Shown here piece after piece: positions 7,380 through 30,890 of a DNA stretch of 32,524 nucleotides. Position 1 is the stretch's first letter. Each line of letters begins with the position of its first letter. A program made the position numbers and the translations under genes. This DNA comes from a virus. The stretch is taken from positions 1-32,524 of IMG/VR virus record IMGVR_UViG_3300023170_000105, one strand, 5' to 3'. Under the pieces are notes generated by a model. It was not told where the DNA came from and made no database searches. It was given only the letters and a program-made list of their open reading frames with translations.

Positions 7380-8060
7380 TTATAAAATTTGATCTGCAAT
7401 TCCCATTTCAATTGCTTCTTCTGCTGAAAAATAACAATTCACTTTCTTTTTGATCAAAGACCTCAACTTTTTCTCTGAAAGGTTTGTTTCTCTTGCAAGG
7501 CATTCAATGTATTGCTTTTGAAGAACTTTGATTTCTTTTGTGTCGTTTTCAATGTCTTGAAGATCTCCAACTGCCCCACCAGCAACAGGGTGGATCATCA
7601 CCCTGCAATTCTTTCCAATCTTTCTCTTGCCTTTTGTTCCTGCTGCGAGAAGAAGAACTCCTGCTGACATAACCTTTCCAAGACCGATTGTTTCAATCTC
7701 ACAGTCTTCTTTGACAAGATCCATTACATCATAAATGGCAAACATTTCGTGAGCGGAGCCGCCGTGCGTTGAGATAATAAACTTGATTGGTTTATATGTT
7801 TCTTCATAATCTTCGTCAGTAGGCTCTTCTTTGTCCATTGCCTCTTCTTTGAGAACACTTTGTTTTCCTGTTTTGTGGAGATGCAGGAGAGAATAAACCA
7901 TAGAAGCTCCTGCTTCTTCGGTAAGGTCTTCATAAAGACCAAACGAACGGTTCTCTTCTTTGCCTCCGGCAACATCATCAATGTAAAACGCAGAAAGAAG
8001 ATCAAGACCTTTTTCTTCTTTTTTCTCTTCTTTTGCTTGTTTTTCTTCGGAAATCTTCAT
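7380..8060 (-). CDS. clpP: ClpP-like serine protease with altered triad
   Basis: The 226-residue protein aligns with ClpP. 'IISTHGGSAHEMFAIYDVM' replaces the usual S-P-G-G strand, the nucleophile is Ser132 in GKVMSAGVLLLAAGTKGKR, and the base is His157 in RVMIHP. The third triad position, Asp in E. coli ClpP just before R-F-L-S-A, is Asn208 here (VNCYFSAEEA). About 28 acidic residues (62-90) are inserted before the second strand. In phages ClpP-like proteins often serve as prohead proteases. Its position between an acidic repeat protein and GroEL fits capsid maturation, but that is inference. It is the first gene behind the promoter-terminator element at 8102-8144. Confidence 0.88.
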   Translation of the reverse strand: MKISEEKQAKEEKKEEKGLDLLSAFYIDDVAGGKEENRSFGLYEDLTEEAGASMVYSLLHLHKTGKQSVLKEEAMDKEEPTDEDYEETYKPIKFIISTHGGSAHEMFAIYDVMDLVKEDCEIETIGLGKVMSAGVLLLAAGTKGKRKIGKNCRVMIHPVAGGAVGDLQDIENDTKEIKVLQKQYIECLARETNLSEKKLRSLIKKKVNCYFSAEEAIEMGIADQIL

Positions 8061-8101
8061 ATTTCACCTCTTTTTTAATAATTAGTTTGCAGATAAAACA
8101 A

Positions 8102-8131
8102 AACCCGTGAATATTATTATACTCACGGGTT
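8102..8131 (-). terminator. Terminator hairpin overlapping a promoter
   Basis: Perfect 9-bp stem (8102-8110 with 8123-8131), 12-nt loop, followed on the minus strand by a U-rich TTTTGTTTT. It lies 36 bases after the stop of the acidic repeat gene. The loop holds the TATAAT of the overlapping promoter. Confidence 0.75.
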
Positions 8132-8144
8132 CTTTAAAAGTCAA
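8116..8144 (-). promoter_or_regulatory. Promoter with -10 in terminator loop (clpP-groEL operon)
   Basis: TTGACT (8139-8144), 17 bp, TATAAT (8116-8121). RNA started here would begin within the distal stem, so it carries only half of the hairpin and escapes termination, while readthrough from upstream is stopped. The same arrangement recurs at 21112-21152. Confidence 0.8.
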
Positions 8145-8167: not shown

Positions 8168-8716
8168 TTATTTCAGCTTCTGAAGTCGTCTCATCACTCT
8201 TTCAGCGATAACTTCTGCTTTTCTGTCTTTTCGCTTTGCTTCATCAAGTCGCCTCATCACTCCTTCAGCGACAGCTTCTGCTTTCCTGCTTTTTCTTTTT
8301 GTTTCGTCAAGGCGACGAACAACTCGCTTAGTGATACGGCTAGCCATAGCTTCCATCAAGTCTTCAGCGGGGGCCTCTTCTTCCATGTCCACTTCGAGGT
8401 CTTCTTCGTCAGCTTCCATGTCATCCATTTCGGGAGCTTCATCAACATCGCCGGCCTCAACTTCTGCGTCTACACCTAAAGAGTCCATCATTGCTTTGAT
8501 ACCTGCGACCAGATCATCTTCGTCAAAGGTTTTCTTTTCGGGCATCGGCTCGTCCATTTCCGGAGCGTCCATTTCGGGCTCATCTTCTTTGTAAGCGCGG
8601 CCCATGTACGCCGGCTCATCGTCTTTGTACATGCCTTCATTAAGTTTGCCACTGGCGATGTTAGCCAGTTTTTGGAAGCGTCTGATCGCCTCTTCGTTCA
8701 ACAGTCTTTTAGACAT
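8168..8716 (-). CDS. Highly acidic protein with C-terminal tandem repeats
   Basis: The start is at 8714-8716 (MSKRLLNEEAIRRFQKLANI), set by AAGGAG ten bases upstream. The 182-residue protein has three parts: a basic N-terminal helix; an extremely acidic, Met-rich middle (about residues 35-120, many D/E-M-D/E runs); and a basic C-terminus with a repeated unit of about 21 residues ('AVAEGVMRRLDEAKRKDRK' type, two and a half copies). The charge layout resembles capsid scaffold or core proteins that a prohead protease digests, and a ClpP-like protease gene follows. I infer but cannot show that role. The upstream palindrome at 8730-8749 may regulate it. Confidence 0.65.
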   Translation of the reverse strand: MSKRLLNEEAIRRFQKLANIASGKLNEGMYKDDEPAYMGRAYKEDEPEMDAPEMDEPMPEKKTFDEDDLVAGIKAMMDSLGVDAEVEAGDVDEAPEMDDMEADEEDLEVDMEEEAPAEDLMEAMASRITKRVVRRLDETKRKSRKAEAVAEGVMRRLDEAKRKDRKAEVIAERVMRRLQKLK

Positions 8717-8729
8717 TGCGTATTCTCCT

Positions 8730-8749
8730 TTATATTTGCGCAAATATAA
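8730..8749. promoter_or_regulatory. Perfect 20-bp palindrome in leader of acidic gene
   Basis: TTATATTTGCGCAAATATAA is a perfect palindrome that ends next to the AAGGAG ribosome site of the acidic gene. It could be a protein-binding site or, as RNA, a hairpin near the ribosome site. No sigma-70 promoter of the common type lies upstream. Confidence 0.5.
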
Positions 8750-10848: not shown

Positions 10849-11080
10849 AAGTTGTCTCCTTTTCTTGACAATCTGGACAATAAAGCAAAACTTGTTTCAA
10901 GCTTTCCGTTACTTCTACTTTGAAAGTCTGAACGTGTTGTTTGTCTTGTTTGTTATACTTTGTTCCACAAGTTGTGCATTTGTCTGGCACACCGTTCAAC
11001 ATTAGATCAATTACTGATTTCATTTGCTTTTTTGCTTCCTTTTTCTTTTGCTTTTCAATTCTTCTTTTAATCTGTCTCAT
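10838..11080 (-). CDS. Small zinc-ribbon protein
   Basis: The 80-residue protein has a very basic N-terminal helix (MRQIKRRIEKQKKKEAKKQM) and a zinc ribbon with C-x2-C pairs at Cys35/Cys38 and Cys68/Cys71. The two knuckles are separated by 29 residues, mainly beta-strand. The basic helix suggests nucleic-acid binding. It starts by an ATGA overlap with purA and overlaps the methylase start by 11 bases. No specific family is recognised. Confidence 0.7.
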   Translation of the reverse strand: MRQIKRRIEKQKKKEAKKQMKSVIDLMLNGVPDKCTTCGTKYNKQDKQHVQTFKVEVTESLKQVLLYCPDCQEKETTYGC

Positions 11081-12096: not shown

Positions 12097-12564
12097 TTAA
12101 TTTTGATTGAACAGTTCTCTTTTCCAGTATGCTTCTTCTTTTCCGTCAGTCGAGCCAAAGCCGCCATCACCCCTGCTGGAGTCATAAAGTTCATCAGCCT
12201 CGATAAAAGCACAAGTCTCCACTTTGCGGAGAACCAACTGTGCGATCTTCTTTGGAAATTCAATATCGGGCGATGCCTGATCCAGCTTGAGAAGAGGAAC
12301 AAAAAGCTCTCCTCTATATCCAGAGTCAACAACCCCAATAGAGTTAGCTTGAATGTATCCGGACTTAATGATACTGGAGCGTGGAACAATCTCAAAGTAA
12401 TAACCACATGGCGGCTCAATAGCCAACCCAGTTGAAAACATTACAACACCATTGTCCAACTCTTTGTGTTTGTCAAGAACCCAAAGATCATATCCAGTAT
12501 CACTAAGGTGAGCCTTGCGAGGGATCACAGCGTCTGGCCTCAACTTCTTAACCTTCGTCTCCAT
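12097..12564 (-). CDS. dut: dUTP diphosphatase (dUTPase)
   Basis: The 155-residue trimeric-type dUTPase shows all five motifs: DTGYDL, PRSSIIKSG, GVVDSGYRGELFVPL, IAQLVL and the C-terminal arm RGDGGFGSTD. It hydrolyses dUTP to dUMP and PPi, keeping uracil out of DNA and supplying dUMP to ThyX (18096-18812). The start at 12562-12564 follows GAGGAGG by eight bases; a long upstream extension in the same frame overlaps the 78-aa gene and has no dUTPase features. After motif 5 there is an extra tail of about 17 residues (EEAYWKRELFNQN). Confidence 0.95.
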   Translation of the reverse strand: METKVKKLRPDAVIPRKAHLSDTGYDLWVLDKHKELDNGVVMFSTGLAIEPPCGYYFEIVPRSSIIKSGYIQANSIGVVDSGYRGELFVPLLKLDQASPDIEFPKKIAQLVLRKVETCAFIEADELYDSSRGDGGFGSTDGKEEAYWKRELFNQN

Positions 12565-12784
12565 CTTCAACCTCCTCTGCTTGTACAGAAACCAACTGTT
12601 GCAGGGAAAGAAGCTTTCCTTCTGCATCTGCCAGCTTTTGAACCATCTTGTCCATCGAGTTGACAATATTGGGATGATCCCCAACTCCAACGGAAGCTGC
12701 AAAATAAACTTCGAGAACAGCCTTTGCTTCGGCAATCTCTGCTTCATAACGGCGCACAAGCGCATCATACTTAAGTGTACTCAT
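12548..12784 (-). CDS. Small coiled-coil protein, 78 aa
   Basis: It is the first gene after the perfect promoter at 12811-12839, with AAGGAG seven bases before its ATG. The protein is helical (EAEIAEAKAVLEVYFAASV; MVQKLADAEGKLLSLQQL) with an acidic C-terminus (EEVEDGDEG), and its end overlaps the dut start by 17 bases. Phage structural and regulatory coiled coils can look like this; no family is recognised. Confidence 0.65.
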   Translation of the reverse strand: MSTLKYDALVRRYEAEIAEAKAVLEVYFAASVGVGDHPNIVNSMDKMVQKLADAEGKLLSLQQLVSVQAEEVEDGDEG

Positions 12785-12810: not shown

Positions 12811-12839
12811 ATTATAGCAAAATGTTACACAAATGTCAA
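12811..12839 (-). promoter_or_regulatory. Perfect consensus sigma-70 promoter (dut-purA operon)
   Basis: TTGACA (12834-12839), 17 bp ending TTGC, TATAAT (12811-12816). The dnaE stop codon (12836-12838) is within the -35. A 6-bp inverted repeat TGCTAT/ATAGCA (12804-12819) covers the -10. Confidence 0.88.
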
Positions 12840-15800
12840 GCTAATAGTTTAAAGTTTTTTCGGATAGAGCGAGTGCTGAATCCCCAAGTGGGGTGATACT
12901 CAAGCTTCGCCATGTAGGGACGATTAATATGGATCTTGTCTTTCTCAGGATCAACCCCCCAACATTTGATATCGACCATACCTGAATCATCAATAGTCTT
13001 CAAGATCCAATAAAGTTTGCCATTCTTTGTTTTCTTTTTGATGATCTCTCTTGGAACAAACCAAGCAACCATAAGATCCTCATCGAACTGGGAGAGGGGC
13101 GGAACACAATGCTGCTCCAATTGCCTCACAACATCGTCGTCCATAACCTTGTGGAAGGGATACATACCAGTCAACCCGACAAGATACTCAATCCTTTCCT
13201 CTTCGGAGAACTCTCCCTCTGGTTTGTAAAGTTCGATGTTCTCCGCTAGCTTCTTTTTGTTTCTAGGTTTGTCAACAGCGACAGCAGACCAGAAGTGTTT
13301 GTCACCAGTGAAGCGATCATCAATAAGTTCGTTCATTGCTCCGGCTCTAATCAAGACATCCACCGCTTTCTTGTTGAGTTTGTTGTGCTTTATCTCGTCG
13401 TGAAACAAAAGCTCATCAATTGTATCAAAAGGTCTGTGCATCAAAAGCTCATCAATTGCTTTCTCACCCAATCCTTTGATCGAAAGAAGGGGCTGAACCA
13501 AGGTCTTGTCGTCCAAGATAGCCCAATGCCTTTCCGACTTGTTGATGCTGACCTCTTGAATGTCAAAGCCCAAACCTTTTGCAATAGAGATTGCCTTCTC
13601 TTTCCTGCTTTCTGGCTCCTTATCTAGGAACGCTGCCATCCATTCCACAGGATAGTAATATGATAACCAAGCGCATTGGTAAGAAAGCATAGAATAAGAA
13701 ACAGCATGCGACTTATTAAAACCATATCCCGAAAAGTATTCGAAAGTTTTCCACAACTTTTCTGCATCACCGTTTGGGATTTTCTTTTCAGAACATCCGC
13801 GAATGAACTTTTTGTATATCTTGTCTTTCTCTTCATGACCTTTGCCCGTTCCTTTCTTTGTCAGAAGTTTGCGAAGTTTGTTACCCTCATCCAAAGAAAC
13901 GTTCTTGCCCAACTTGTGAGCTAGCAAAGCAATCTGCTCTTGAAAGATCAGGAAGCCGTGAGTTTCTTTTGTTACTTCTTCAACAATCGGATGAATGTAT
14001 TCAACATGTTTCAAGCCTTCTTTTGCATCCACATATTCTTGATCAACGCCGGCTGATAGGGGACCGGGGCGAAAGATCGAAGTGATAGCAGAAATATCAA
14101 TGATGCTGTTAGGTTTTGCTTTAACACAAAAGTTTTGCGCTCCTGTTTCTGTGAACTGGAATGTCCCAGCGAAGTTGCCTTTGTGGAAAACATTCTCATA
14201 AACTTCCTTGTCTTTAATGTCCATCACGTCCGGATGCAAGTGTTTGTTGTAGAACTCTTTAATGTCATTGAAAGAAACGTCTTTCTTTCCCTGCCTAGTC
14301 AGGATATGCTCAATGCAAGATTCAATCATCCGAAGCGAAGCCAATCCAAGAATATCAAACTTGATGAAGCCAAGAGGCTCCAAGTGACGAACGTTCTGAC
14401 CTTCCGACCAAGGAGTTTGACGAACGCCACCGTTCTTGATCAGAGGCATATATTTATCTAAGTTCTCTCCGACCACCACGCCCCCTGCGTGTCTTGAACA
14501 TGATCGAACCTGCCCATACAATTGCAAGACGTGCGTCTTAACGTTTGGGTACTTCTGCAAGAAAGCTTTCAAGGAATCAGAGTACTCCATCACTTCTTCA
14601 AAAGTCGGGGTGTAAACACCCGCCTTTATGCCGTGAACTTGCTTTGCAATCGGCGTAGCTTCCTTCAGCATCCTGCTGGTAACAGGGTTGACTTCCGTAA
14701 AGGGAATGTCATAGAACTTTGCAATGTCCTTGATCAGGGAACGAAGCTGCAAAGTGTTCCAGTTCGAAATAGGGACAACAACATCATCACCCCACTCTTG
14801 AATAAACATATCCTTCAAAGCCATAGGGTCGGAAACGTCATAGTCAATGTCAGGATAGTCTGTCGCATCTTTGCGAAGAAAGCGTGAGAACAGAAGACCC
14901 CACTTGATTGGATCAATCTGCGTGATACCCAGAACATAAGCAACCAAAGAACCAGCAGCAGAGCCGCGTCCGGCTCCTGTCAACTGATACTCCAATGCTT
15001 TATCGGAGATTGCTTTCATCGTCAAGAAATACTTTGAGAAGCCACGAGAAGAAATAACAGTCACCTCCTCTTTCAAGCGAGCAACATAATCTCTCTTCTT
15101 GTCCAGTCCTTTAGCCTTCAAACCTTCAAAACAAAGTTCAATTAGAGCTTGGTCTTCGTCCTTTCCTTCTGGGACGACAAAGTCTGGCAGTCGAACAGTT
15201 GCATCTGGTTCAAAGTCTTCAACCAACTCATGAGCAATGTAGTAAGTGTTCTCAATACTTTGTCGAACATCTTCATCGTTGTATTCGTGACCGGAAAGTT
15301 TGGAATACTTCAAGTAAGATTCAAAGACTTGATCTCCGTTCTTTGGATACAACTCATAGCCAATCTCATCAACAGACTGCGGAAGCTCGTCAGACAGCCA
15401 GTCTGGCTTCTTCGACATTCCAAGCCAGCCGAGCCTCTTGTAAAGTTCGCGGTCTTTCCAAAGCTCTGGTCGAGCGTAGTGAGAGTCCACAGTCGAGATC
15501 AGCTTGATGCCATATTCCTTGGAAAGCTCAATGATACATTTATTAAGCTTGTGTTGCTCTGGAATGTTGTTCCATTGAAGTTCTGCAAAGTATCTTTCTT
15601 TGCCAAAGATATCAATAAAGTCTTCAACAACGGGACGCATCAAGGCCACAAGCTCTTCGTGACTAGCTTCAGGGTTGTCCCAGACAACCTGTGCGAAAGG
15701 CCCACTGATGCAAGTAGTAGAGCAGATCAAACCTTCATTGTATTCTTTCAAAAGCTTTAGATCGATACGAGGCTTACGATAAAAGTATTTATCTTCGTGA

Positions 15801-16234
15801 GAAGTGGAAACCAACTTGAAAAGGTTGTTCAATCCCTTTTGGTTCTGTGCGATCAAGAGGAGGTGGTTGTAGGTGCGAACACGGTTCTTTCCTTCGGAAG
15901 CTTCCATGTTAACACCCTTTGCCTTTTCTTTTTTCTTCTTTTCATTCGCAGCATCAAAAGCTTCTTGCCACTCTTCAACATCTTTGATGTAATAAGCTTC
16001 GCAACCAAAGAGAGGTTTGAATGTTCTTCCTTCTTTGTTCATCTTCTTTGCGTGAAGAAGCTGCCAAGAGAAGCCATTCATGTTTCCGTGATCGGTCAAA
16101 GCCATTGCATCCATGCCGTTCTCATAGGCAAAGTCCATATGATCACTTGGGTAACCAAGAGCGTCGAAGGGTGAGCCAGCAACAGAGTGAGCGTGAAGTC
16201 CGACAAACTTAAGTTTTGATTTTACTCTTTCCAT
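12836..16234 (-). CDS. dnaE: DNA polymerase III alpha subunit (family C, DnaE-like)
   Basis: The 1132-residue protein has the DnaE layout. An N-terminal PHP domain includes HAHSVAGSPFDALG and ALTDHGNM, then GCEAYY and later STVDSHYA. The palm has GRGSAAGSLVAYVLGI, the catalytic pair PDIDYD and the third aspartate in IKFDILGL. The fingers have FQFTETG, FRPGP and FSGYGFNKSHAVSYSMLSYQ, and a C-terminal OB-like region follows. PHP metal ligands look kept, so proofreading by PHP is possible. It is close to bacterial DnaE in length (about 1160). Family C polymerases are uncommon in phages, and a family A polymerase is also present here. AGGAG precedes the start by seven bases. Confidence 0.96.
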   Translation of the reverse strand: MERVKSKLKFVGLHAHSVAGSPFDALGYPSDHMDFAYENGMDAMALTDHGNMNGFSWQLLHAKKMNKEGRTFKPLFGCEAYYIKDVEEWQEAFDAANEKKKKEKAKGVNMEASEGKNRVRTYNHLLLIAQNQKGLNNLFKLVSTSHEDKYFYRKPRIDLKLLKEYNEGLICSTTCISGPFAQVVWDNPEASHEELVALMRPVVEDFIDIFGKERYFAELQWNNIPEQHKLNKCIIELSKEYGIKLISTVDSHYARPELWKDRELYKRLGWLGMSKKPDWLSDELPQSVDEIGYELYPKNGDQVFESYLKYSKLSGHEYNDEDVRQSIENTYYIAHELVEDFEPDATVRLPDFVVPEGKDEDQALIELCFEGLKAKGLDKKRDYVARLKEEVTVISSRGFSKYFLTMKAISDKALEYQLTGAGRGSAAGSLVAYVLGITQIDPIKWGLLFSRFLRKDATDYPDIDYDVSDPMALKDMFIQEWGDDVVVPISNWNTLQLRSLIKDIAKFYDIPFTEVNPVTSRMLKEATPIAKQVHGIKAGVYTPTFEEVMEYSDSLKAFLQKYPNVKTHVLQLYGQVRSCSRHAGGVVVGENLDKYMPLIKNGGVRQTPWSEGQNVRHLEPLGFIKFDILGLASLRMIESCIEHILTRQGKKDVSFNDIKEFYNKHLHPDVMDIKDKEVYENVFHKGNFAGTFQFTETGAQNFCVKAKPNSIIDISAITSIFRPGPLSAGVDQEYVDAKEGLKHVEYIHPIVEEVTKETHGFLIFQEQIALLAHKLGKNVSLDEGNKLRKLLTKKGTGKGHEEKDKIYKKFIRGCSEKKIPNGDAEKLWKTFEYFSGYGFNKSHAVSYSMLSYQCAWLSYYYPVEWMAAFLDKEPESRKEKAISIAKGLGFDIQEVSINKSERHWAILDDKTLVQPLLSIKGLGEKAIDELLMHRPFDTIDELLFHDEIKHNKLNKKAVDVLIRAGAMNELIDDRFTGDKHFWSAVAVDKPRNKKKLAENIELYKPEGEFSEEERIEYLVGLTGMYPFHKVMDDDVVRQLEQHCVPPLSQFDEDLMVAWFVPREIIKKKTKNGKLYWILKTIDDSGMVDIKCWGVDPEKDKIHINRPYMAKLEYHPTWGFSTRSIRKNFKLLA

Positions 16235-17342: not shown

Positions 17343-18099
17343 TTAACACCTCCTTGTAATACGAATTTTCAAATGTTATTCTCTTACCTGTCTCTACTTT
17401 GTGTTTTTGTATCTTTACGACATCTCTGTGCATATGCTCTAGTTTTATTGGTTTATAATATTTCCTGCCGTTATAGACTGTTGCGATCCTATCAGTTCTA
17501 TACCCTTCTTCTTTTAGCCTCGCCAACACTGTCAATCGAAAGATCGAGCCTTCTAGGTCTGCATCATTCAACTCACTGCCTTCAAGATAAGACAAGATCG
17601 CTATGTCTTTTTCATTCTTGTTGTGGTTGTCGCGACTTGTTGAGTGTAAGAAGATCTTGTTGATCACTCTGTTATCATCCTCAAAAACAAGATCTTCCTC
17701 AATCAAACCTTCTTCGTTGTATATACCTGTTCTTAATTTAAGCCAATCAACAACCTTATTACACAACAATTCTGTTTCCAAAACTTGGAATTGATCTGAA
17801 ATAATCTGAACATAATCAAAAACAAAACAATGATTAAATTCAAATTCCTTTGAGGCTTTTCCATCATGGAAAGAAATAAGATTATCTTCTATTTTGATTG
17901 AAGGATTGAAATCAGAAAGGGTAGAAACCAACCCCTTCAAAGAATGCCAGTAAAGCATTTCTGATCTTTCTTCTTCTTTGGTATGGTCAAAGAAGAAGAA
18001 AGGAAGGGGCTTGGTTCTAATAATTGGTAGGTTGTTTTGAACAGCGAACTTAACCGCTTTATGAGAAGAGCCAATAACTATTTTGTCACACTTGATCAT
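17323..18099 (-). CDS. Unknown 258-aa protein
   Basis: No family is recognised. The N-terminus 'CDKIVIGSSHKAVKFAVQNNLPII' is a strand-loop-helix-strand resembling the start of a nucleotide-binding (Rossmann-like) fold, but without G-x-G-x-x-G. A central 'FNHCFVFDYVQI' strand and a C-terminal lysine/arginine-rich region follow. It overlaps thyX by four bases (ATGA) and the next gene by 20 bases, suggesting co-translation and a common process with its GT-A-like partner. Confidence 0.55.
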   Translation of the reverse strand: MIKCDKIVIGSSHKAVKFAVQNNLPIIRTKPLPFFFFDHTKEEERSEMLYWHSLKGLVSTLSDFNPSIKIEDNLISFHDGKASKEFEFNHCFVFDYVQIISDQFQVLETELLCNKVVDWLKLRTGIYNEEGLIEEDLVFEDDNRVINKIFLHSTSRDNHNKNEKDIAILSYLEGSELNDADLEGSIFRLTVLARLKEEGYRTDRIATVYNGRKYYKPIKLEHMHRDVVKIQKHKVETGKRITFENSYYKEVLNGKTIL

Positions 18100-18812
18100 T
18101 TATCCTCTTTGTTGATCTCTCTATACGCTCTAACAGTAACGGGCCAAAGGTCTTCTGCAATCTCCAAACAAGCTTCGGCTGCTTTTTGAATTTCCCATTG
18201 CGCTCCTTCGTGTGTGCGAAGGCCAATAAACTTAAGAAGGTTGTTTAGATCGACTGTGCCATAATATTCTGTGTACATGTTTTGAGGAAGCACTCCCCTT
18301 GCTTGCTCCCTACAAATGCCTTTGTCAATCAATTCATTGAAAAGCTTCAACGATCTTGTGTGATGATCTTGAATTACTAAATTAGCCGGAGCAGCATACC
18401 CCAAATATCTTGAATAAACATTGGGATTGACCAATTCATCTTCATTGCTAGCTTGCCTGTTAGACTTATGTTGAGTTCTGAATTGGGTCGGCTCATAAAA
18501 CTCAATGTTGAAGTCTGTATATCTTCTGGAAATCTCATTGTACTTCCAAGTACGATGGCGATGATGCTGCGAGCGGACAAAAAGCGGAACTTTAAACCGA
18601 AACGTAACATTGTTGTGTTCCAAAGTAGAAGTATGCTTGTGTTTGATCAAATATTTAATCAGCTTTTGATCTTTCAGATCCATAATCTCTTTGTGTTTGC
18701 CAAAGCTCACGCGAGCAGAGTTGACGACTGTAAGGTCGGTTCCCATATGCTCAACAAACTCAACTTTGCCAATGCCGTCTCCGTACAGTTCAATTGATTT
18801 AGAATATTTCAA
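18096..18812 (-). CDS. thyX: Flavin-dependent thymidylate synthase ThyX
   Basis: The 238-residue protein contains the ThyX signature RHR-x4-NE-x-S-R (RHRTWKYNEISRR, residues 85-97), with 'HTSTLEHNNVTFRFKVPLFVRSQ' before it and 'NNLLKFIGLRTHEGAQWEIQKAAEA' after it. It methylates dUMP to dTMP using FAD, NADPH and methylene-tetrahydrofolate, without needing DHFR. dUMP comes from the phage dUTPase and ribonucleotide reductase. The start is unusual: TTG (18810-18812), overlapping the upstream stop as TTGA, with GGGAG about nine bases before it. No ATG start fits. Confidence 0.95.
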   Translation of the reverse strand: MKYSKSIELYGDGIGKVEFVEHMGTDLTVVNSARVSFGKHKEIMDLKDQKLIKYLIKHKHTSTLEHNNVTFRFKVPLFVRSQHHRHRTWKYNEISRRYTDFNIEFYEPTQFRTQHKSNRQASNEDELVNPNVYSRYLGYAAPANLVIQDHHTRSLKLFNELIDKGICREQARGVLPQNMYTEYYGTVDLNNLLKFIGLRTHEGAQWEIQKAAEACLEIAEDLWPVTVRAYREINKEDK

Positions 18813-19364: not shown

Positions 19365-20354
19365 CTAGTAGTTTGTGCAAATAATATGAACAGCAGAATA
19401 AGAATGAGAATCTCTTTTTTCTTTGTCAACTCTTTCAAAAGATATATTATTGATTCCAAGCTTTTGCAAACTTTTCACAGCAGCATTTGCTTTCTTGGCG
19501 TCCTTGTCTTTCAAGGGCTCTGTGACATCCTTCTCAGAAACAACAACATATTCTACCCCATCTTCTACTTCTTTTTTTCTATATTTAACGCCATAATTGT
19601 GTTCGTACTCCTTTTTGATGTAGCCATCGTACAGTTTACTAGTAAATTCATCTTTGTTGATAATAATCAACGCTCTTGTTTTCGTTGTTTTAAACCAGTT
19701 GGCTAGCTCTTCTTGCTCTTTGTCTAGAAACTCGCCATTCGGATGGTACTTTGTAAATTCCCTAGTGTAAGGGGGATCTATAAAAACAAAGTCATTTGGC
19801 CCACAATTTTTAACAGCGTCTTTCCAATCTCCATGAAGTATCTCTGTATTGTTCAATAAAGTTGTAAGCTTTTTAACATCCGTATCAAATGTTTTAAATG
19901 TCTTGTAATAGCCATATGGAACGTTGAATTTTCCATCTTTGTTGAACCTGAGCATGCCGCCATAACTAAGCTGCCTAAGTGTATAAAACCTAACGGCATT
20001 CTCAAAATCGCTAGCAACCTCACCATCTCTAACATCATAAAAATACTTTTTAGCTACATCTTTGTAGTCGTCTTTAGACTGTGCATTTAAAGCCTTGACA
20101 TCTTTATTATAATCAGACGTTATTGAATTAAGATGATCAGCTAGTTTTTTAGGATCGCTTTTACAAACGTTATAAAAGTTAATCAAATCAAAATAGCTAT
20201 CATTGATAATGCACTTATCATGCTCCAAGTTTAACCAGAGAGCGCCGCCTCCAATGAATGGTTCGCAATATGTTTCATATTTTTCTGGCATCCACTCTTT
20301 AATCGAATTCAATTCTCGTCTTTTTCCACCAGACCACTTAAACATCGGAATCAT
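19365..20354 (-). CDS. D12-class DNA adenine methyltransferase of R-M pair
   Basis: The 329-residue enzyme has the class alpha (Dam/MboI/EcoRV type) motif order: FKWSGGKRRELN at residues 5-16, EPFIGGGALW at 31-40 (SAM binding), INDSYFDLINFYN, RFNKDGKFNVPYG and catalytic DPPY at 193-196. It methylates adenine N6; the target sequence cannot be read from the protein alone. Compared with Dam (about 280 aa), it has an extra charged C-terminal region (from about residue 270). It starts by ATGA overlap with the putative endonuclease gene and has its own AAGGAG, so both come from the same mRNA. Confidence 0.93.
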   Translation of the reverse strand: MIPMFKWSGGKRRELNSIKEWMPEKYETYCEPFIGGGALWLNLEHDKCIINDSYFDLINFYNVCKSDPKKLADHLNSITSDYNKDVKALNAQSKDDYKDVAKKYFYDVRDGEVASDFENAVRFYTLRQLSYGGMLRFNKDGKFNVPYGYYKTFKTFDTDVKKLTTLLNNTEILHGDWKDAVKNCGPNDFVFIDPPYTREFTKYHPNGEFLDKEQEELANWFKTTKTRALIIINKDEFTSKLYDGYIKKEYEHNYGVKYRKKEVEDGVEYVVVSEKDVTEPLKDKDAKKANAAVKSLQKLGINNISFERVDKEKRDSHSYSAVHIICTNY

Positions 20355-20938
20355 TTTACTTCTCCTTTTGAGTATTTACCCATCCAAGCCCACATATCTT
20401 TGTATTCTTTCTCTGTCATATCCAAGCCAATATCGTCAAAAAAAGACTTCACACCAACCGTTACATCTTCTTGCCCTTCTTTAAAATATTTATATCCGGC
20501 TGCTTCCCACATGGTTGGGACGAGTATCTTTCCAGCAAATCTTTCTCTATCAAGACTTTGTTTAGAAAGATGTTCCGCAACAAGATCAAGCTTTTGAATA
20601 ACTGCTGGATTTTTTTCTGTGTCAAAATCAATATTACACTTAATTTCATAATATTTATTACTATAGGCTAGATCAATCTGCACTTTATTTTTCTTTCCCG
20701 GGATCGTTACGTGGTCTAATTCATGATAATTAACTTTGTTACTTTCTTTTGCTAGCCTATTAAATACTTTTTCAATAATATTTCCAGCCTTAATGCATAC
20801 AGACTGTATGGAAAACCCCTGCTGTTCTGGGAACAGCAGTCCTTTTGCACTAACCTTGATGGTTTGTTTTTTTTGAAAATTTACCCTTCTAACTTCCTCT
20901 TTCCAAATTTGTTTTGCCTGTTTTACACTAATTGACAT
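20351..20938 (-). CDS. Putative type II restriction endonuclease (PD-(D/E)xK)
   Basis: I place the start at 20936-20938 (MSISVKQAKQIWKEE), set by AAGGAG ten bases upstream; an in-frame extension to 21016 has no ribosome site. The 195-residue protein contains a PD-(D/E)xK core: Glu56 in a helix (NIIEKVFN), Asp89 on a strand (KVQIDLAY), and E98-I-K100 (YYEIKCN). This spacing matches type II restriction enzymes. It is co-transcribed and overlaps with a D12 adenine methylase gene, the usual R-M arrangement. No family match beyond the motif is claimed, and the cleavage site is unknown. The upstream promoter carries a 25-bp operator-like palindrome. Confidence 0.72.
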   Translation of the reverse strand: MSISVKQAKQIWKEEVRRVNFQKKQTIKVSAKGLLFPEQQGFSIQSVCIKAGNIIEKVFNRLAKESNKVNYHELDHVTIPGKKNKVQIDLAYSNKYYEIKCNIDFDTEKNPAVIQKLDLVAEHLSKQSLDRERFAGKILVPTMWEAAGYKYFKEGQEDVTVGVKSFFDDIGLDMTEKEYKDMWAWMGKYSKGEVK

Positions 20939-20944
20939 GTCTTC

Positions 20945-20969
20945 TTTCTCCTTTGTGTCGTTAACAGCT
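20945..20969 (-). repeat. Shared 5' leader, copy 1 (restriction gene)
   Basis: Twenty-five bases (minus strand AGCTGTTAACGACACAAAGG then AGAAA) match the leader of the ssb gene at 29739-29763 in 24 of 25 positions. It includes the ribosome site AAGGAG. Confidence 0.7.
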
Positions 20970-21041
20970 AATTTGTCAAAACAGTTCTTAAGCACGTTGC
21001 CTATCATGAAACACAACCCACTCTTTTCTGTCTCGACTTTA

Positions 21042-21066
21042 TGTCACAATTATATCAATTGTGACA
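21042..21066. promoter_or_regulatory. Operator-like palindrome over the R-M promoter
   Basis: Perfect 10-bp arms TGTCACAATT and AATTGTGACA, separated by five bases. The palindrome covers the -10 box and probable start site of the promoter at 21049-21077, so a bound protein should block transcription of the R-M pair. No dedicated controller (C) gene is next to it. Confidence 0.75.
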
Positions 21067-21077
21067 ACTTTTGTCAA
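21049..21077 (-). promoter_or_regulatory. Perfect consensus promoter of the R-M pair
   Basis: TTGACA (21072-21077), 17 bp, TATAAT (21049-21054). Transcription would start near 21042, about 100 bases before the endonuclease start, leaving a long leader. Confidence 0.85.
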
Positions 21078-21111
21078 GGTTTTTATTTTAAATAATCTCC
21101 AACTCAAACAA

Positions 21112-21147
21112 AAAGACCCCTACATTATAGCAAATGTAGGGGTCTTT
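21112..21147 (-). terminator. Strong terminator hairpin after the RNR gene
   Basis: Perfect 15-bp stem (21112-21126 with 21133-21147), six-base loop, followed on the minus strand by TTTTTGTTTG, 24 bases after the RNR stop. The loop and its edges contain the TATAAT of an overlapping promoter. Confidence 0.88.
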
Positions 21148-21152
21148 GTCAA
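21124..21152 (-). promoter_or_regulatory. Perfect promoter embedded in the terminator
   Basis: TTGACA (21147-21152), 17 bp, TATAAT (21124-21129), all 12 bases matching. The -10 is in the hairpin loop, so initiated RNA contains only the distal arm. It is the stronger of two promoter-terminator composites in the window. Confidence 0.8.
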
Positions 21153-21171: not shown

Positions 21172-23034
21172 TTAAATTATTTCACAAGACCCACCGCCAC
21201 AAGCAATCTCGCCTGAAAGATTGGTGTTGTCCACTTCTTCCACAACTTTTGAAAGGTCAAGTGACTTAAGTGTGCCAAGAAGTCTTTCGTATTCTTCTTT
21301 GGTGCAAGTCTCAAAAGGTGCTTGCTTGTAAGTTCCTAGGTCTTTGGGAAGCACAGAAAGTCCGTTGAAGTTGTGTCGGTTTTCCCACATCCATTCTCCA
21401 ACCTTTTCCCACTCACCTTGACCAATGCTAACAGTTGCAGAAACATTGTTTGTGTTCTGTCCACTTCTGTGGCCTTCTTGAACCCATTCAACGTTGAACT
21501 TGCGAACCCTCTCCAACATGTCCATAACATCTTCGTCTCTAGTAATAGCACCTTCAGGGGCTTTTTGCGGGACGCTAATGACAGCCTGCGTTGAAGGGTT
21601 AAACAATTCATCTTCCAACATTTCAGGAGCAACTTCCTTCAGGTAAGGATAGATTGCTTCATTCTTTCCAACGCGAACACGACGAATGTAATACTGGTCG
21701 TGCCAAGCGTGGATACCGCTGGAAGTTCCCAGAATGATCGAAGCAGTTCCTTCAGGTTTCACGCAAGTTGTTCTTGCAGCGGGATTGATGCCAAGCATCT
21801 CTGCCACTCTTGCGTTCTCTTCTTTGACAACTTGCGCTGCTCTTTTAAGGTCAAGGCTCATCACTCCACCGGATGCGATACCGGTCATAGAAACGCCAAT
21901 AAGGGCATCCTTTTCCGTAACCTTCCTCCAACTATCTCTTAGGTAGTGGAAGTCCGTATACGCCGCCTGAACCGTCCCTATGAACGCAGCAGCCCTCACT
22001 CTCTTCTCCAATTCTTCTTGATCGTAAACATCAGAGACATTCACAGTTGTCAAGTTGCAGAACTGGTGGCTCTTCAGGGAGATCTCGCAACATGGGTTGA
22101 CTCCGCGATCAGCATTGTTCGAGAAGTAAATACCGGGCTCACCAGAGTTGGAAGCTTCAATCTTTTCCCAGAACTTCAAGAACTCTTCTTTCTTGATCTT
22201 GTGACGAAGAACAACAGCGGAGTTGTTCGACCTTGCTCTTTGAGGAGCGTATTCCCACCAGTTGCCGGCCTTACAGCTAATCATTTGCTCGTCGTCAAAA
22301 TCAAAAAGAGAGATCAAAGCAGCGCGGCGAATACCACCAGCTAACACAGCATCAGCAATATAACATACAATATCATGAACTTCAAGAGAAGTCAACTTTT
22401 CTCCAGTTTCTTTTGCTTCCAAAACCTTTCGGATATTGTGGAGGCAATCATGGAGAGGTTGTGGGCCGGGAGCTTTTCCGCCTGAAGTGATCAAACGCTC
22501 ACCTTTCGCTCTGATATCGCTATAGTCAAATACAATCGTGCTGGTTCCAGAGAAGTAAGACTTCATCAAAGTCTTGACTGCATCTGCCCAACCTTCAATG
22601 GAGTCTCCGATCAGATAACGCCGCTTTCTTTTGATTGGCTTTTTGATCTCTGGGAGCTTTTCAATGTGGTGGTTCTGCACAGAGAAGCCAACACCAGTAC
22701 CGCCGAGAAGAAGAAACATAATCTCCGAAAAGGCTCGCCAATCATCCATTGCCAGATAAGAGCAGTTGTATTGTCTTGCCGGGTTGATCTCAATAGGACG
22801 ACCGGAGAACTGCATTGCCCTCATCGAACCAAGAACTTTCTTGTCATAAACTGTCATATAAGCATTGATAAGTTCTTCTTCAAACCCGGGAATGTGTTTA
22901 AACTTTTTCAAATGCATTGCGCGGTTTCTATTGACCGCTTCGTGAAACAACTCTCTTCTTTTCTTTCTATCATCGTACTTGGAATACTTCATCCACTGTA
23001 CGACATCGCTCAAAATCTCACTACTCTTTTCCAT
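21172..23034 (-). CDS. nrdJ: Class II (B12-dependent) ribonucleotide reductase
   Basis: The 620-residue protein matches monomeric class II RNR. It has an N-terminal redox cysteine in ARQYNCSYLAM, an active-site loop NPCCEISLKSHQFCNLTTVN, GGIRRAALI, and a C-terminal cysteine pair C612/C617 (CGGGSC) that is re-reduced by thioredoxin. There is no NrdB partner gene here, as expected for class II. It makes deoxynucleotides from ribonucleotides with adenosylcobalamin and without oxygen. It is shorter than the Lactobacillus enzyme (739 aa). It follows dnaB by 11 bases; a terminator follows it. Confidence 0.93.
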   Translation of the reverse strand: MEKSSEILSDVVQWMKYSKYDDRKKRRELFHEAVNRNRAMHLKKFKHIPGFEEELINAYMTVYDKKVLGSMRAMQFSGRPIEINPARQYNCSYLAMDDWRAFSEIMFLLLGGTGVGFSVQNHHIEKLPEIKKPIKRKRRYLIGDSIEGWADAVKTLMKSYFSGTSTIVFDYSDIRAKGERLITSGGKAPGPQPLHDCLHNIRKVLEAKETGEKLTSLEVHDIVCYIADAVLAGGIRRAALISLFDFDDEQMISCKAGNWWEYAPQRARSNNSAVVLRHKIKKEEFLKFWEKIEASNSGEPGIYFSNNADRGVNPCCEISLKSHQFCNLTTVNVSDVYDQEELEKRVRAAAFIGTVQAAYTDFHYLRDSWRKVTEKDALIGVSMTGIASGGVMSLDLKRAAQVVKEENARVAEMLGINPAARTTCVKPEGTASIILGTSSGIHAWHDQYYIRRVRVGKNEAIYPYLKEVAPEMLEDELFNPSTQAVISVPQKAPEGAITRDEDVMDMLERVRKFNVEWVQEGHRSGQNTNNVSATVSIGQGEWEKVGEWMWENRHNFNGLSVLPKDLGTYKQAPFETCTKEEYERLLGTLKSLDLSKVVEEVDNTNLSGEIACGGGSCEII

Positions 23035-27917: not shown

Positions 27918-29000
27918 TTAATCCTCCTGTGTTTCTAATGCTTCTTCGCTATCTTCGGCTGGTTTATAGATAACATGTTCATCCATAACGTCAAAGATAA
28001 CTTGTCTGAACTCTGGGTCTTGAAGTTTCTCGACCCATTGCTTTGCTTGAAACTTAAACTCTCTTCCCTCTTTCGAGGTCAGAGTGTACCAAGCTCCTCC
28101 GGCTTTCAATCTTTCAGAGCCTTTGATGGCATCAAGCCAACTTTCCTCATCTTGAATTCCAACTTGCTGACCCCAAAGCAACTTAAAGTTGCAAGTCCTT
28201 CCAGCGGAACCAAAACGAGACTTTTCAAGTTTAACTTTCACTTCAGAACCAATCCTAACACCATTGGAATCCAAAATGTAAGCAGCCTTTGCTTTTCTGG
28301 CAGTGAGCCAGATTCTCAAAGAATAGGTATAATGAGCAGCTTTGCCTCCCGGTGTGAAATAAGGAGTAGTCAAAGCTTCTGCAATATTACTGGTGATATT
28401 CGTTTTAAGCTGATTAACAATCAAGAAAGTTGATTGTGTGTTCGCCAAAGGAATCGTCACCTTCGAGAAGGCTTTGGAAAGAATCCTAGCTTTCATTGCC
28501 ATGGAAGATTGAGGGTTGAAGTCGCCTTCAACGTCTTTCTCCGCAGGAGTGTGTGCTAGGGAATCCCAAATAAACAGCCATTTCTCTTCATCTGCCAAAA
28601 GAGTTTCAATCATTTCGAATACTTTCTCAACAGATGCTGCTTGGACATAAAGCAAGTCATCAACATTACAACCAGCTTTTGCCAAGAAAGTAGGATCAAT
28701 TGCTGATTCAGCGTCGAAGTAAGCAACTCTAATGCCCATCTTTTGTGCGTTACCAGCAATTTGTGCAGCCATGAAGCTTTTCCCACTAGCTTCAAGTCCT
28801 GCAATCTCCGTGATCTTTCCAACAGGGATGCCAGCCAATTGACCTCTGCAAATGATAGAGTCCAACCAGCGTGAGCCGGTGGGAATCCATTCTTTGACTT
28901 CTGTTGGATTTTCTTTGTTGAGGTTGTGTGCAACCGTCATGCCTACCTTTTTATTCAGCAGCTTGCGGTACACATCCATGTCTACTTTACCAGCGGTCAT
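27918..29000 (-). CDS. recA: RecA/UvsX-like recombinase
   Basis: The 360-residue protein has a RecA core. Walker A is GLEASGKS (about 68-75), followed by VAYFDAESAIDPTFLAKAG. Walker B lies in WLFIWDSLAHT, with FLIVNQLKTNI and TPGGKAAHYTYSLRIWLTARK (DNA-binding loop 2 and beyond) later. It would load on ssDNA with SSB and promote strand exchange and recombination-dependent replication. The C-terminal region (from about 290) is acidic, as in RecA. It starts two codons after the ssb stop, with GGGGG as the ribosome site. Confidence 0.93.
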   Translation of the reverse strand: MTAGKVDMDVYRKLLNKKVGMTVAHNLNKENPTEVKEWIPTGSRWLDSIICRGQLAGIPVGKITEIAGLEASGKSFMAAQIAGNAQKMGIRVAYFDAESAIDPTFLAKAGCNVDDLLYVQAASVEKVFEMIETLLADEEKWLFIWDSLAHTPAEKDVEGDFNPQSSMAMKARILSKAFSKVTIPLANTQSTFLIVNQLKTNITSNIAEALTTPYFTPGGKAAHYTYSLRIWLTARKAKAAYILDSNGVRIGSEVKVKLEKSRFGSAGRTCNFKLLWGQQVGIQDEESWLDAIKGSERLKAGGAWYTLTSKEGREFKFQAKQWVEKLQDPEFRQVIFDVMDEHVIYKPAEDSEEALETQED

Positions 29001-29003
29001 TTA

Positions 29004-29735
29004 TCAACCCCCAAGAAGTTCGTTGAAAGCCTTTCCAACTTTGTCTTCGACATTAGAAGAGTATTTCTCAACTTCATCTTTGTCGCCACCAGCAAGGTAT
29101 CTATCAAGCAGAGCTTGAACATCTTGTGTGGTTTTTCTTTCGAAAAGACCATCAAAGTCCGGAATAGCCTCCAGAAGTTGAGCGCATTCCTCGTCACCAT
29201 CTTCGCATGCTTTCGAAGCTCGACGCTTCGGAGTAAGAGTGGTAGAGGGGAACATTGCTCCCGGTGCTTTACCATAAGCAAGAACCAAATCGGTTCCAGT
29301 GTCAGTATCGGTAATATCACCGTAGTCGGGGTTCAAAACCAATTGAAGCAATTGCTCATAAACAGTTTTGGAGTAACCCCAAATCTTCACACCTTCTTCT
29401 TCTTTTCCTCGAACGAGGACAGGCGAGAAGAACCTTTGCTTTGGAAACAGCTTTTTAGCCATTTCAATAGACTCCGGAGTGCCTTCGCGATAAAGTTCGG
29501 ATGCAAAGTCCAAAACAGGGGACTCATCACCAAAGTTACGCTTCGGGCAAAGAGTAGGAGCTTTATCCAGTCCGTAATAGAACCAAAACTCTTTGAACGG
29601 ATCGCCATCCGAAGTGGGCAGAATACGAATGGTTTGCTCTCCATCTTCCGGTTTCCAGAAAAGATTGTCTTTACCGCCTCCTTTGTTTTTCAAGCGGTTG
29701 TACTTTTCTCTCATTTTTTTCATGTCAATAGCCAT
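29004..29735 (-). CDS. gp32-like ssDNA-binding protein
   Basis: The start is at 29733-29735, preceded by AAGGAGAAAACA; an in-frame extension to 29783 runs into the promoter. The 243-residue protein resembles T4 gp32-type proteins: a basic N-terminus (MKKMREKYNRLKNKGGGKDN), 'FWKPEDGEQTIRILPTSDGDPFKEFWFYYG' (OB-fold core), then 'VKIWGYSKTVYEQLLQLVLNPDYGDITD', and an acidic C-terminus. It would coat ssDNA at the fork and recruit replication proteins. It shares promoter and operon with recA. Confidence 0.82.
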   Translation of the reverse strand: MAIDMKKMREKYNRLKNKGGGKDNLFWKPEDGEQTIRILPTSDGDPFKEFWFYYGLDKAPTLCPKRNFGDESPVLDFASELYREGTPESIEMAKKLFPKQRFFSPVLVRGKEEEGVKIWGYSKTVYEQLLQLVLNPDYGDITDTDTGTDLVLAYGKAPGAMFPSTTLTPKRRASKACEDGDEECAQLLEAIPDFDGLFERKTTQDVQALLDRYLAGGDKDEVEKYSSNVEDKVGKAFNELLGG

Positions 29736-29738
29736 TGT

Positions 29739-29763
29739 TTTCTCCTTTGTGTTGTTAACAGCT
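29739..29763 (-). repeat. Shared 5' leader, copy 2 (ssb)
   Basis: AGCTGTTAACAACACAAAGG then AGAAA on the minus strand, matching 20945-20969 with one difference. Confidence 0.7.
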
Positions 29764-29778
29764 TCGAGCTTGTGTAAT

Positions 29779-29807
29779 ATCATATCAAAACGAATTCAAA
29801 AAGTCAA
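29779..29807 (-). promoter_or_regulatory. Sigma-70-like promoter for ssb-recA
   Basis: TTGACT (29802-29807), 17 bp, TATGAT (29779-29784). It shares the GTTCTTGAC context with the promoter at 366-395. Confidence 0.75.
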
Positions 29808-29821
29808 GAACTTTTTTCAAA

Positions 29822-30073
29822 TTATTTCAAATTCAAAGTTCCAGACATATGATAAGAAACCAATTCACCCAATAGAGTATTATGATTAATCACTCTGTAA
29901 CCATTGTTCTCAATATCCCAAACCAACTCCATCCCTTCTTGGAGTTTTGCTTTCTTTCCACCTTTCCCTTCGGGAAGAGCTTCTTTTGGAATCTCATCCA
30001 GCTTCACAAACTTCATACTTCGAACAGAGCCATCTTTCTTTTTAAACGAACCGTGATAAACATTGAACTTCAT
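29822..30073 (-). CDS. Small SH3-barrel/WYL_2-like protein
   Basis: The 83-residue protein reads 'FKKKDGSVRSMKFVKLDEIP' and later 'GMELVWDIENNGYRVINHNTLL'. This is the pattern of the small phage SH3-fold proteins ('FxKKDGxxRxMxx...VWDxExxGxRxxxxDxI'). Role unknown. It starts after the tubulin-like gene stop with a two-base gap and an AGGAG site inside that gene's end. Confidence 0.7.
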   Translation of the reverse strand: MKFNVYHGSFKKKDGSVRSMKFVKLDEIPKEALPEGKGGKKAKLQEGMELVWDIENNGYRVINHNTLLGELVSYHMSGTLNLK

Positions 30074-30074
30074 T

Positions 30075-30890
30075 TTACTCTCCTAAGTTTATTCCTTGAT
30101 GGAAGTGTGTTTTTTTTACAATCAAACCAAAATCATAACCAGATTCATTCGGATAAATCTTATAACAAAAATTCTTCTTTTCTTTAAAGTTGCCTTTGAT
30201 CAGCGAAATAAGATCAACATCTTTTTCAAGCCTTTCTTTGTTGATGGACATATAATACCAAAACTCATTTTGATTGTCAAGCAAAAAATAATCATTTTCA
30301 GAATTATTTTCAAAATCATATGATCCAATTGACAAGATCCTATTTCTTTCCATTGAAGAGAACTTTGTTGCTGTGATCGGCTTTGTGTTCTCAAAGTAAT
30401 TCAGCATATGGATCGAATAGCTGATTACGTCATTAATCTTATCAAACTTGTTCATGAATGTCAAGCCTGAAATTGAACTTTCTAATTTCTCATTTGAAAT
30501 CAAGATAATATCCTTGAACACACCAGACCTTGCATAGTCCTGCAAGGCGTTGAAGATCAGTCTGTGCTGTAAGGAATACTTCTCATAAAGTTGATCTTCT
30601 TCTGGAATGATCAGAACTATCCTGATCTCTGTTTCTTTGAATTGCTCCAAGATCTTCAAGGAACATCCGGAGATTGTTCCGGAAGTTGAAACAAAGAAAA
30701 GAGTCTCGGAGTGTCTTGGAACAACTTGAATATTGAAATGATCTTCATATTCCTTATGCGATCCTCTTTCTTCGATCAGAAAGCCCCCTTCCCTTCTTTC
30801 TGTGTCGAAAAGATAAAGATTGTATTGAGGATATTGTTTAAACTTTTCTGCGATATTACAACCACAGTTGCCCAAACCAATCACATTCAT
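30075..30890 (-). CDS. Putative tubulin/FtsZ-fold GTPase
   Basis: The start at 30888-30890 overlaps the pyrF stop (ATGA) and follows AAGGAAGAG. The 271-residue protein resembles FtsZ in order: residues 2-12 VIGLGNCGCNI (family 'VIGVGGGGGNA'), LYLFDTE, 'ETLFFVSTSGTISGCSLKILEQFK' at 62-85 (position of the GGGTGTG loop, here TSGTISG), 'IRIVLIIPE', then a helix (HRLIFNALQDYARSG), 'DIILISNEKLE' and 'FDKINDVISYSIHML' at 149-163. The catalytic T7 loop is not clear. Phage tubulins organise replication centres or plasmids. The G-loop is non-canonical, so GTP binding is unproven. Confidence 0.5.
   Translation of the reverse strand: MNVIGLGNCGCNIAEKFKQYPQYNLYLFDTERREGGFLIEERGSHKEYEDHFNIQVVPRHSETLFFVSTSGTISGCSLKILEQFKETEIRIVLIIPEEDQLYEKYSLQHRLIFNALQDYARSGVFKDIILISNEKLESSISGLTFMNKFDKINDVISYSIHMLNYFENTKPITATKFSSMERNRILSIGSYDFENNSENDYFLLDNQNEFWYYMSINKERLEKDVDLISLIKGNFKEKKNFCYKIYPNESGYDFGLIVKKTHFHQGINLGE
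30252..30280 (-). promoter_or_regulatory. Internal promoter candidate in tubulin-like gene
   Basis: TTGACA (30275-30280), 17 bp, TATTAT (30252-30257). It would start RNA in the last third of the gene and transcribe the SH3-like gene (29822-30073). A weaker site (TTGACA, TAAGAT) lies at 30436-30464. Confidence 0.4.

Follow-up and report, generated by a model that had tools for sequence, protein, structure and literature searches.

Gene content of the window and of the phage

The window (the whole stretch of 32,524 nucleotides that was analysed, IMG/VR record IMGVR_UViG_3300023170_000105) represents part of a phage genome, with most genes lying on the minus strand. It matches a 157-kb IMG/VR contig, hereafter G001, with 99.99% identity across 29.5 kb; window positions 1-29478 and 27947-32524 both align to this contig, the latter with 98.8% identity over 4.6 kb. 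Since the ends of G001 overlap, the genome is probably circularly permuted or redundant, with a length of about 155 kb.

Two intergenic elements of the window are considered here, both of which sit between same-strand open reading frames (ORFs). The first follows an ORF of 620 aa on the minus strand (21172..23034), which matches PHROG 367 (E 1e-130) and carries, according to Pfam, the ribonucleotide reductase (RNR) barrel together with the RNR-II insertion domain of the class II, B12-dependent enzymes, thereby confirming its earlier identification as an RNR gene. Downstream lies a minus-strand ORF of 221 aa, read from a TTG (20351..21016), which belongs to PHROG 26553, a family of unknown function, and whose true start may be an ATG near 20938. 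The second element is preceded by a minus-strand ORF (8168..8743) for which no family was matched in PHROGs or Pfam, and is followed by the minus-strand gene of a ClpP-like head maturation protease (7380..8060; Pfam CLP_protease, E 1.5e-32; PHROG 94).

Elsewhere in the window, a GroEL is encoded by the phage on the minus strand (4507-6075), and a set of genes for nucleotide metabolism and replication (9364-10377, 12097-12768, 18096-18812, 30887-31561 and 12836-16234) comprises IMP dehydrogenase/GMP reductase, dUTPase, ThyX, an orotidine decarboxylase-like protein and a DnaE-type DNA polymerase. The minus-strand ORF at 11077-12087 encodes a protein of the adenylosuccinate synthetase (PurA/PurZ) family. 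A 2-aminoadenine (Z) genome was considered because this ORF matches the PHROG named "2-aminooxy adenylosuccinate synthetase"; in NCBIfam the PurA models outscore PurZ, all of them under the curated cut-offs, and the best-matching solved structures are adenylosuccinate synthetases. A Z genome is thus no more than a possibility.

Anatomy of the element behind the RNR gene

Read on the minus strand from 21152, the sequence is TTGACA AAGACCCCTACATTTGC TATAAT GTAGGGGTCTTTTTGTTTG. The -35 hexamer TTGACA (21147..21152) begins about 20 nt past the RNR stop codon, the ORF ending at 21172, and the -10 hexamer TATAAT (21124..21129) is preceded, one base upstream, by TG. Both hexamers agree with the sigma-70 consensus at 12 of 12 positions, and their 17-bp spacing falls within the 16-18 bp typical of such promoters. 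The same DNA forms a hairpin (minus strand, 21112..21147) of 15 perfect pairs, six of them GC, with a loop of six bases (TGCTAT) and a predicted stability of about -24 kcal/mol, followed at once by a coding-strand T-rich tail, TTTTTGTTT (21106..21114). A stable hairpin with an immediate T tract directly behind a gene is the sequence signature of an intrinsic terminator.

The two signals are nested rather than adjacent. The 5' arm of the hairpin occupies the spacer between -35 and -10, the first half of the -10 hexamer lies in the loop and its last half in the 3' arm, and the predicted transcription start, placed at 21117 by the standard distance from the -10 (seventh base past it), falls within the 3' arm. 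The -10 is thus enclosed by a hairpin on the same strand, with the start inside it; by coordinates, the loop centre lies about -0.5 nt from the start of the -10 and the T run begins at +4. The preliminary description, made from the letters of the sequence, had reported a perfect 15-bp stem with a U-run after the RNR gene and, enclosed by it, a 12-of-12 promoter with 17-bp spacing, and both parts were borne out.

A second perfect promoter, TTGACA-N17-TATAAT, lies on the minus strand 47 bp beyond this element (21049..21077). Centred on its -10 is a 10-bp palindrome (TGTCACAATT-gatat-AATTGTGACA; 21042..21066) without a T run on the minus strand. This palindrome looks like an operator, and for this promoter the operator reading is kept.

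Further nested elements in the phage and in a cousin

Three nested elements are present in this phage, namely those at 21152 and 8144 of the window and one at 36105 of G001, which lies outside the window, and another occurs at 129762 of the cousin contig G002. The element upstream of the ClpP-like gene has the -35 hexamer TTGACT (8139..8144), the -10 hexamer TATAAT (8116..8121) and a hairpin of 15 pairs, G-T pairs allowed, with a loop of four bases and then a T-rich tail (8100..8133), all on the minus strand. The preliminary description had placed a comparable element at 8102; the element is real, though short of perfect, the promoter scoring 11/12 and the stem being counted with G-T pairs. 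The third element combines a 12/12 promoter of spacer 18 with a bulged hairpin of -24 to -25 kcal/mol, and the promoter of the cousin's element scores 11/12.

The association of the two parts was evaluated by a conditional shuffle, in which the hexamers were held fixed, the spacer and the downstream bases were shuffled (n=300) and the T-tailed enclosing hairpin was scored. For each of the four elements (21152, 8144, G001 36105 and G002 129762), none of the 300 shuffles reached the observed stability. Four other promoters of G001 were treated in the same way: two had no enclosing hairpin, and the other two were matched by 12/300 and 7/300 shuffles, the latter being the palindrome-bearing promoter at 21077.

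In one scan of the T-tailed hairpins located outside ORFs, which missed the bulged element at G001 36105, the hairpins on the gene-rich plus strand were fused to a promoter in 2/8 cases in G001 and 1/3 in G002, and those on the minus strand in 0/5 and 0/1, respectively. It was a looser local-fold scan with a 64-nt span that revealed this third G001 element; as it called hundreds of hairpins, mostly long and imperfect, it was excluded from the statistics. Long T-tailed hairpins similar to one another, and unfused to promoters, are repeated within about 5 kb at G001 38117 and 39374 (also 34146).

Relatives at the RNR and ClpP sites

Sixty-nine related RNR loci were found in IMG/VR, and the downstream junction was compared for 26 of them. 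L001 and L002 represent this same phage (RNR 100% identical; L002 is located in G001). In L003 and L004, whose RNR is 98% identical, the promoter is kept at 11/12 (TATGAT) and the hairpin is kept as well, a C-to-T change giving one G.U pair; the T run is broken (TCTTGTTATTT), so that termination may be weak there. In both loci the nested element behind the RNR gene is directly followed by a Shine-Dalgarno sequence and a GroES-like gene (L004 5307-5570). L005, with an RNR of 93% identity, has a strong terminator at this site without the promoter. Past L001-L005 the comparison of this junction says little, because in relatives whose RNR is about 60-65% identical the sequences behind the gene are different.

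A scan for nested elements over 77 sequences (1.03 Mb, mostly RNR relatives of about 60% identity) covered 336 hairpins and 1051 promoter-like sites, bulged hairpins and loops longer than 8 escaping it, and returned eight nested elements, every one of them in this phage, L003 or L004. The perfect TTGACA-N17-TATAAT occurs anywhere in the records of 5/20 relatives. The search with ClpP gave six loci, one of which is this phage, and no element was present at the corresponding position in the ClpP relatives L071 and L072 (49%). As judged from these sequences, the evidence for joint upkeep of promoter and hairpin at the RNR site appears thin and mixed, and in part contrary.

Survey of phages and bacterial genomes

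A scan of IMG/VR with the pattern TTGACA-N17-TATAAT-N3-30-TTTTTT gave at least 80 loci. Among the 80 phage matches listed, which were by design preselected for a 12/12 promoter and T6, the -10 was enclosed in a hairpin of -12 kcal/mol or lower (here called fused) in 13, against 0.2 in shuffled sequences, and at -15 kcal/mol or lower in 11, against 0. These fused matches have unrelated sequences and share the same design. Some of them are nevertheless kin: L119, L152, L144 and L184 precede dnaJ-like genes, and L121, L141, L154 and L164 are alike in sequence, so that the 13 fused matches correspond to about seven lineages. In a further 6 of the 80 listed, a hairpin of -12 kcal/mol or lower has its 5' arm beginning in or just past the -10, and the predicted start is again inside. 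With the same pattern, bacterial genomes yielded two fused cases and three with the 5' arm starting in or just past the -10, among 81 matches. The difference in fused elements between phages and bacteria has a Fisher p of 0.003 if the matches are taken as independent, which the phage matches are not.

By using a looser pattern on 19 of these phage records and G001, additional nested elements were found in G024 (-20.3 kcal/mol), G041 (-25.2 kcal/mol) and G037 (-24.2 kcal/mol), with sequences different from the others, so that G024 holds two; another match of the looser pattern in G041 was without a hairpin.

The position of the hairpin relative to the promoter was also counted, considering only the distinct matches listed and hairpins of -12 kcal/mol or lower that precede the T6. 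When the T6 lies 3-30 nt past the -10, a hairpin is present in 22/79 matches and spans the predicted start in 21 of these 22. When the T6 lies 31-60 nt past the -10, a distance at which most hairpins would fall wholly within the promoter's own RNA, a hairpin is present in 7/77, three of the seven spanning the start (22/79 vs 7/77, Fisher p 0.004 if independent). In the tandem arrangement, with the T6 0-30 nt before the -35, 19/88 matches have such a hairpin. Among the matches listed, hairpins that include the start are thus about as common as tandem ones, and those confined to the RNA of the promoter itself are rarer.

The geometry of the fused elements is narrow. All 14 that were measured have their loop centre 2.5-7 nt downstream of the point where the -10 begins, and in all of them the T6 begins 7-20 nt past the predicted start. 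In five of the 14 (L121, L141, L154, L164 and L166), the 3' arm resembles a ribosome-binding site that the T run separates from the ATG, as judged by eye and with some weak cases. A 3' arm that can also be read as a Shine-Dalgarno sequence, with the T run giving the spacing to the start codon, is present at L164 831-886, L166 1668-1717 and phage K 28038-28095. Four elements that are alike among themselves (L131, L132, L146 and L192) have a small hairpin and T6 immediately behind TTGACA-N17-TATAAT; here hairpin and T6 lie mostly in the predicted own transcript, which would give a very short RNA or an attenuator.

Cultured phages

A panel of 17 cultured phages was searched with the pattern TTGA-N19-TATAAT-N3-25-TTTT. 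Eight of them match, and a strong nested hairpin was found in one match only, in Staphylococcus phage K (-17.5 kcal/mol), the remaining matches folding at -6.7 kcal/mol or weaker. The terminators of phage K are annotated in its record, independently of the present analysis, and 39 of them remain when the right terminal repeat copy is left aside. Four of these 39 (28048-28084, 102225-102244, 111908-111962 and 121936-121968) enclose an early (at least 10/12) or late (at least 9/10) promoter motif, against 0.35 in shuffles, the late -10 motif being taken from PMC7698491. Of the four, 28048-28084 and 121936-121968 contain promoters, 111908-111962 contains a late -10 motif, and 102225-102244, with a hairpin of only -7.9 kcal/mol, is a doubtful case. 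In the element at 28048, the 3' arm continues into GGAGGA-TTTTTTT-ATG.

Joint conservation in the dnaJ-linked family

A protein alignment of the dnaJ-like genes from four element-bearing loci was used as query, and the best 80 of 565 relatives were taken. Four of the 80 had too little upstream DNA, and the remaining 76 represent 55 distinct upstream regions. A promoter and a T-tailed hairpin are nested in 51 of these 55 regions, a count that includes two of the query-source loci (L649 and L713); neither part is present in four, and a single part in none. Counted by loci, 72 have both parts and four have neither. Among the 51 promoters, 45 score 12/12, five 11/12 and one 10/12.

The preliminary description had supposed that the design, and not the sequence, is repeated, and this was upheld by the same geometry in unrelated sequences of this phage, its cousin, other phages and phage K. 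Its further suggestion of selection on the design is supported by that recurrence and by the dnaJ regions retaining both parts. Random loss of a single part among relatives, which it had held to speak against such a reading, is absent from the dnaJ-linked family (0/55), while the RNR site gives a mixed answer, L003 and L004 having both parts and L005 the terminator alone.

A probable boundary between transcription units

It is highly probable, from the arrangement of the sequence, that these are operon-boundary elements, each combining the intrinsic terminator of the gene before it with a host-type sigma-70 promoter placed inside that terminator. The anatomy, its non-randomness, its recurrence and the joint conservation of its parts in one phage family are direct observations. 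In the proposed mechanism, the 17-bp promoter spacer, the part of the promoter that is free in sequence, would double as the terminator's 5' hairpin arm, the -10 would supply the loop and the inner arm, and the bases past the -10 would supply the 3' arm and then the T run. A polymerase arriving from the RNR gene would transcribe both arms, so that the hairpin would form and transcription would stop at the T run. A polymerase loaded at the nested promoter would start within the hairpin and proceed into the next gene; its RNA would escape termination because a start inside the hairpin leaves it without the 5' arm. One stretch of about 45 bp would therefore end one transcription unit and begin the next. 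From this anatomy we infer the activity of both halves, the start site and the one-way logic. The type of promoter suggests, in addition, that this phage uses the host polymerase.

Annotation usually treats promoters and terminators as distinct boxes, while here the spacer of a promoter would work as the arm of a terminator, and the nested design would be a simple way of bounding transcription units in about 45 bp. If it is common, it would change the operon calls made in phages, it would furnish synthetic biology with a natural insulated promoter, and it would offer a natural test bed for the local restart of terminated RNA polymerase in living cells.

Why the design is kept

One account of the upkeep of the design is that room is scarce in short gene junctions and that the two signals overlap without any further benefit, which is quite possible, if short of probable. 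Such compact packing is compatible with the boundary reading and bears only on the reason for which the design persists. In agreement with it, 58/80 of the phage matches listed have a same-strand stop codon no more than about 30 nt upstream of the -35, against 22/81 of the bacterial ones, and the tandem arrangement is about equally common (the 19/88 given above). The tight placement of the loop centre in 14/14 elements and the nesting throughout most dnaJ regions weigh against overlap by packing only, although what they demonstrate is constraint, and not a benefit beyond packing.

A benefit of this kind would be the recycling of the polymerase, that is, the RNA polymerase would release its RNA at the T run, stay on the DNA, keep or regain sigma and restart on the nested promoter. 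This would couple the next gene to the preceding one without a joint mRNA; it adds to the boundary reading and is compatible with it. In single-molecule experiments, E. coli RNA polymerase is retained on DNA in vitro after most intrinsic terminations and can restart nearby, with an effect expected to vary with the distance between terminator and promoter (PMC6978380; PMC11347151). Both studies state that recycling has not yet been demonstrated in vivo, and according to the second, a lytic phage that has its own polymerase would benefit little from it (PMC11347151). For phages that depend on the host polymerase, and whose terminator and promoter are almost no distance apart, the situation differs. 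The short interval from the predicted start to the T6 in the 14 fused elements fits with recycling, but compactness alone predicts the same anatomy, and recycling is at present a rather unlikely explanation. The joint reading that phages using the host RNA polymerase have repeatedly evolved terminator-promoters of near-zero distance for polymerase recycling, some of them with 3' arms resembling ribosome-binding sites (L164, L166 and phage K 28048), is put forward as a still more speculative proposal. A ribosome-binding site in the 3' arm would be hidden in the hairpin of read-through RNA and left free in RNA from the nested promoter.

The palindrome might instead be a DNA operator laid over the -10 for a repressor or an activator, its likeness to a terminator being incidental. 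Symmetric operators overlapping -10 boxes are common, and the neighbouring promoter at 21077 carries a palindrome across its -10 without a T run. This reading is improbable for the nested elements, as coding-strand T tails follow them, the arm sequences differ from element to element, and the phage K copies were annotated as terminators by others. The stems of the dnaJ-linked family also speak against it. In 47 distinct elements, 11 outer stem positions gave 517 cells, of which 421 are Watson-Crick pairs, 41 G.U, six A.C and 49 other, these cells being counts of related sequences and not independent changes, in a fixed register picked for best pairing; more than one type of Watson-Crick pair occurs in 10 of the 11 columns. 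A DNA operator would give no excess of G.U over A.C, whereas the excess found (41 vs 6) suggests that pairing is maintained in the sense of one RNA strand, as in a terminator and not as in a symmetric operator. A count on minimum-energy pairs (G.U 73 to A.C 2) was discarded as biased and replaced by the fixed register.

The preliminary description had also raised a mobile regulatory cassette, copied as a promoter-terminator unit around phage genomes. The presence of several nested elements per genome (three in G001 and two in G024) would suit such a copying, yet it is very improbable, and the claim found no support: in the elements compared, copies in the same genome, such as those at 21152, 8144 and G001 36105, have only the promoter hexamers in common. 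Finally, although the window is rich in weak sigma-70-like sites (28 in one half and 41 in the other, shuffles giving 24.5 and 30.1, respectively), the overlap of promoter-like and terminator-like sequence by mere chance is hardly credible and was rejected by the conditional shuffles (0/300 for each of the four elements), with the excess of fused matches among the 80 listed and the joint conservation at dnaJ pointing the same way.

Comparison with known systems

The component parts are textbook matter, and nesting as a recurrent phage design appears to be undescribed within the literature searched, in whose accessible portions, covering few subscription journals, no account of it as a class was found. 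With the intrinsic (Rho-independent) terminator, the RNR-site element shares the stable hairpin, the direct T run and the position just past a stop codon; unlike an ordinary one, it carries a consensus promoter, read on the same strand, within its loop and arms. With the sigma-70 extended -10 promoter it shares TTGACA-N17-TATAAT with TG before the -10, and it departs from the ordinary form in having a spacer that serves a terminator hairpin as its 5' arm.

In the frd-ampC region of E. coli, the terminator of one operon and the control region of the next share DNA. The shared hairpin is there an attenuator downstream of the ampC start, so that the ampC RNA contains it, whereas at the RNR site the predicted start falls inside the hairpin. 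The hairpin promoters of phage N4 have a short stem and a 3-nt loop and are read by the giant virion RNA polymerase, features unlike the 15-bp stem and six-base loop described here.

The Kayvirus phages (phage K and vB_SauM-515A1) resemble the present design in that annotated terminators of phage K enclose promoters. Within this group, a promoter directly behind the terminator t97 and a sequence of the late consensus shortly ahead of t33 have been described (PMC7698491). Accounts of this group present promoters and terminators as neighbouring or separate, and their accessible portions do not mention nesting (PMC7698491; PMC11598898; PMC10383478). The systems described for recycling or reinitiation are alike in that transcription restarts at a promoter near a terminator. 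For T7, T3 and SP6, the distance between the termination sites and the closest starts is given as 14 to 1742 bp (PMC11347151). The recycling systems so described have their promoter and terminator at distinct sites, whereas in the RNR-site element the two share the same DNA, and recycling is a proposal.
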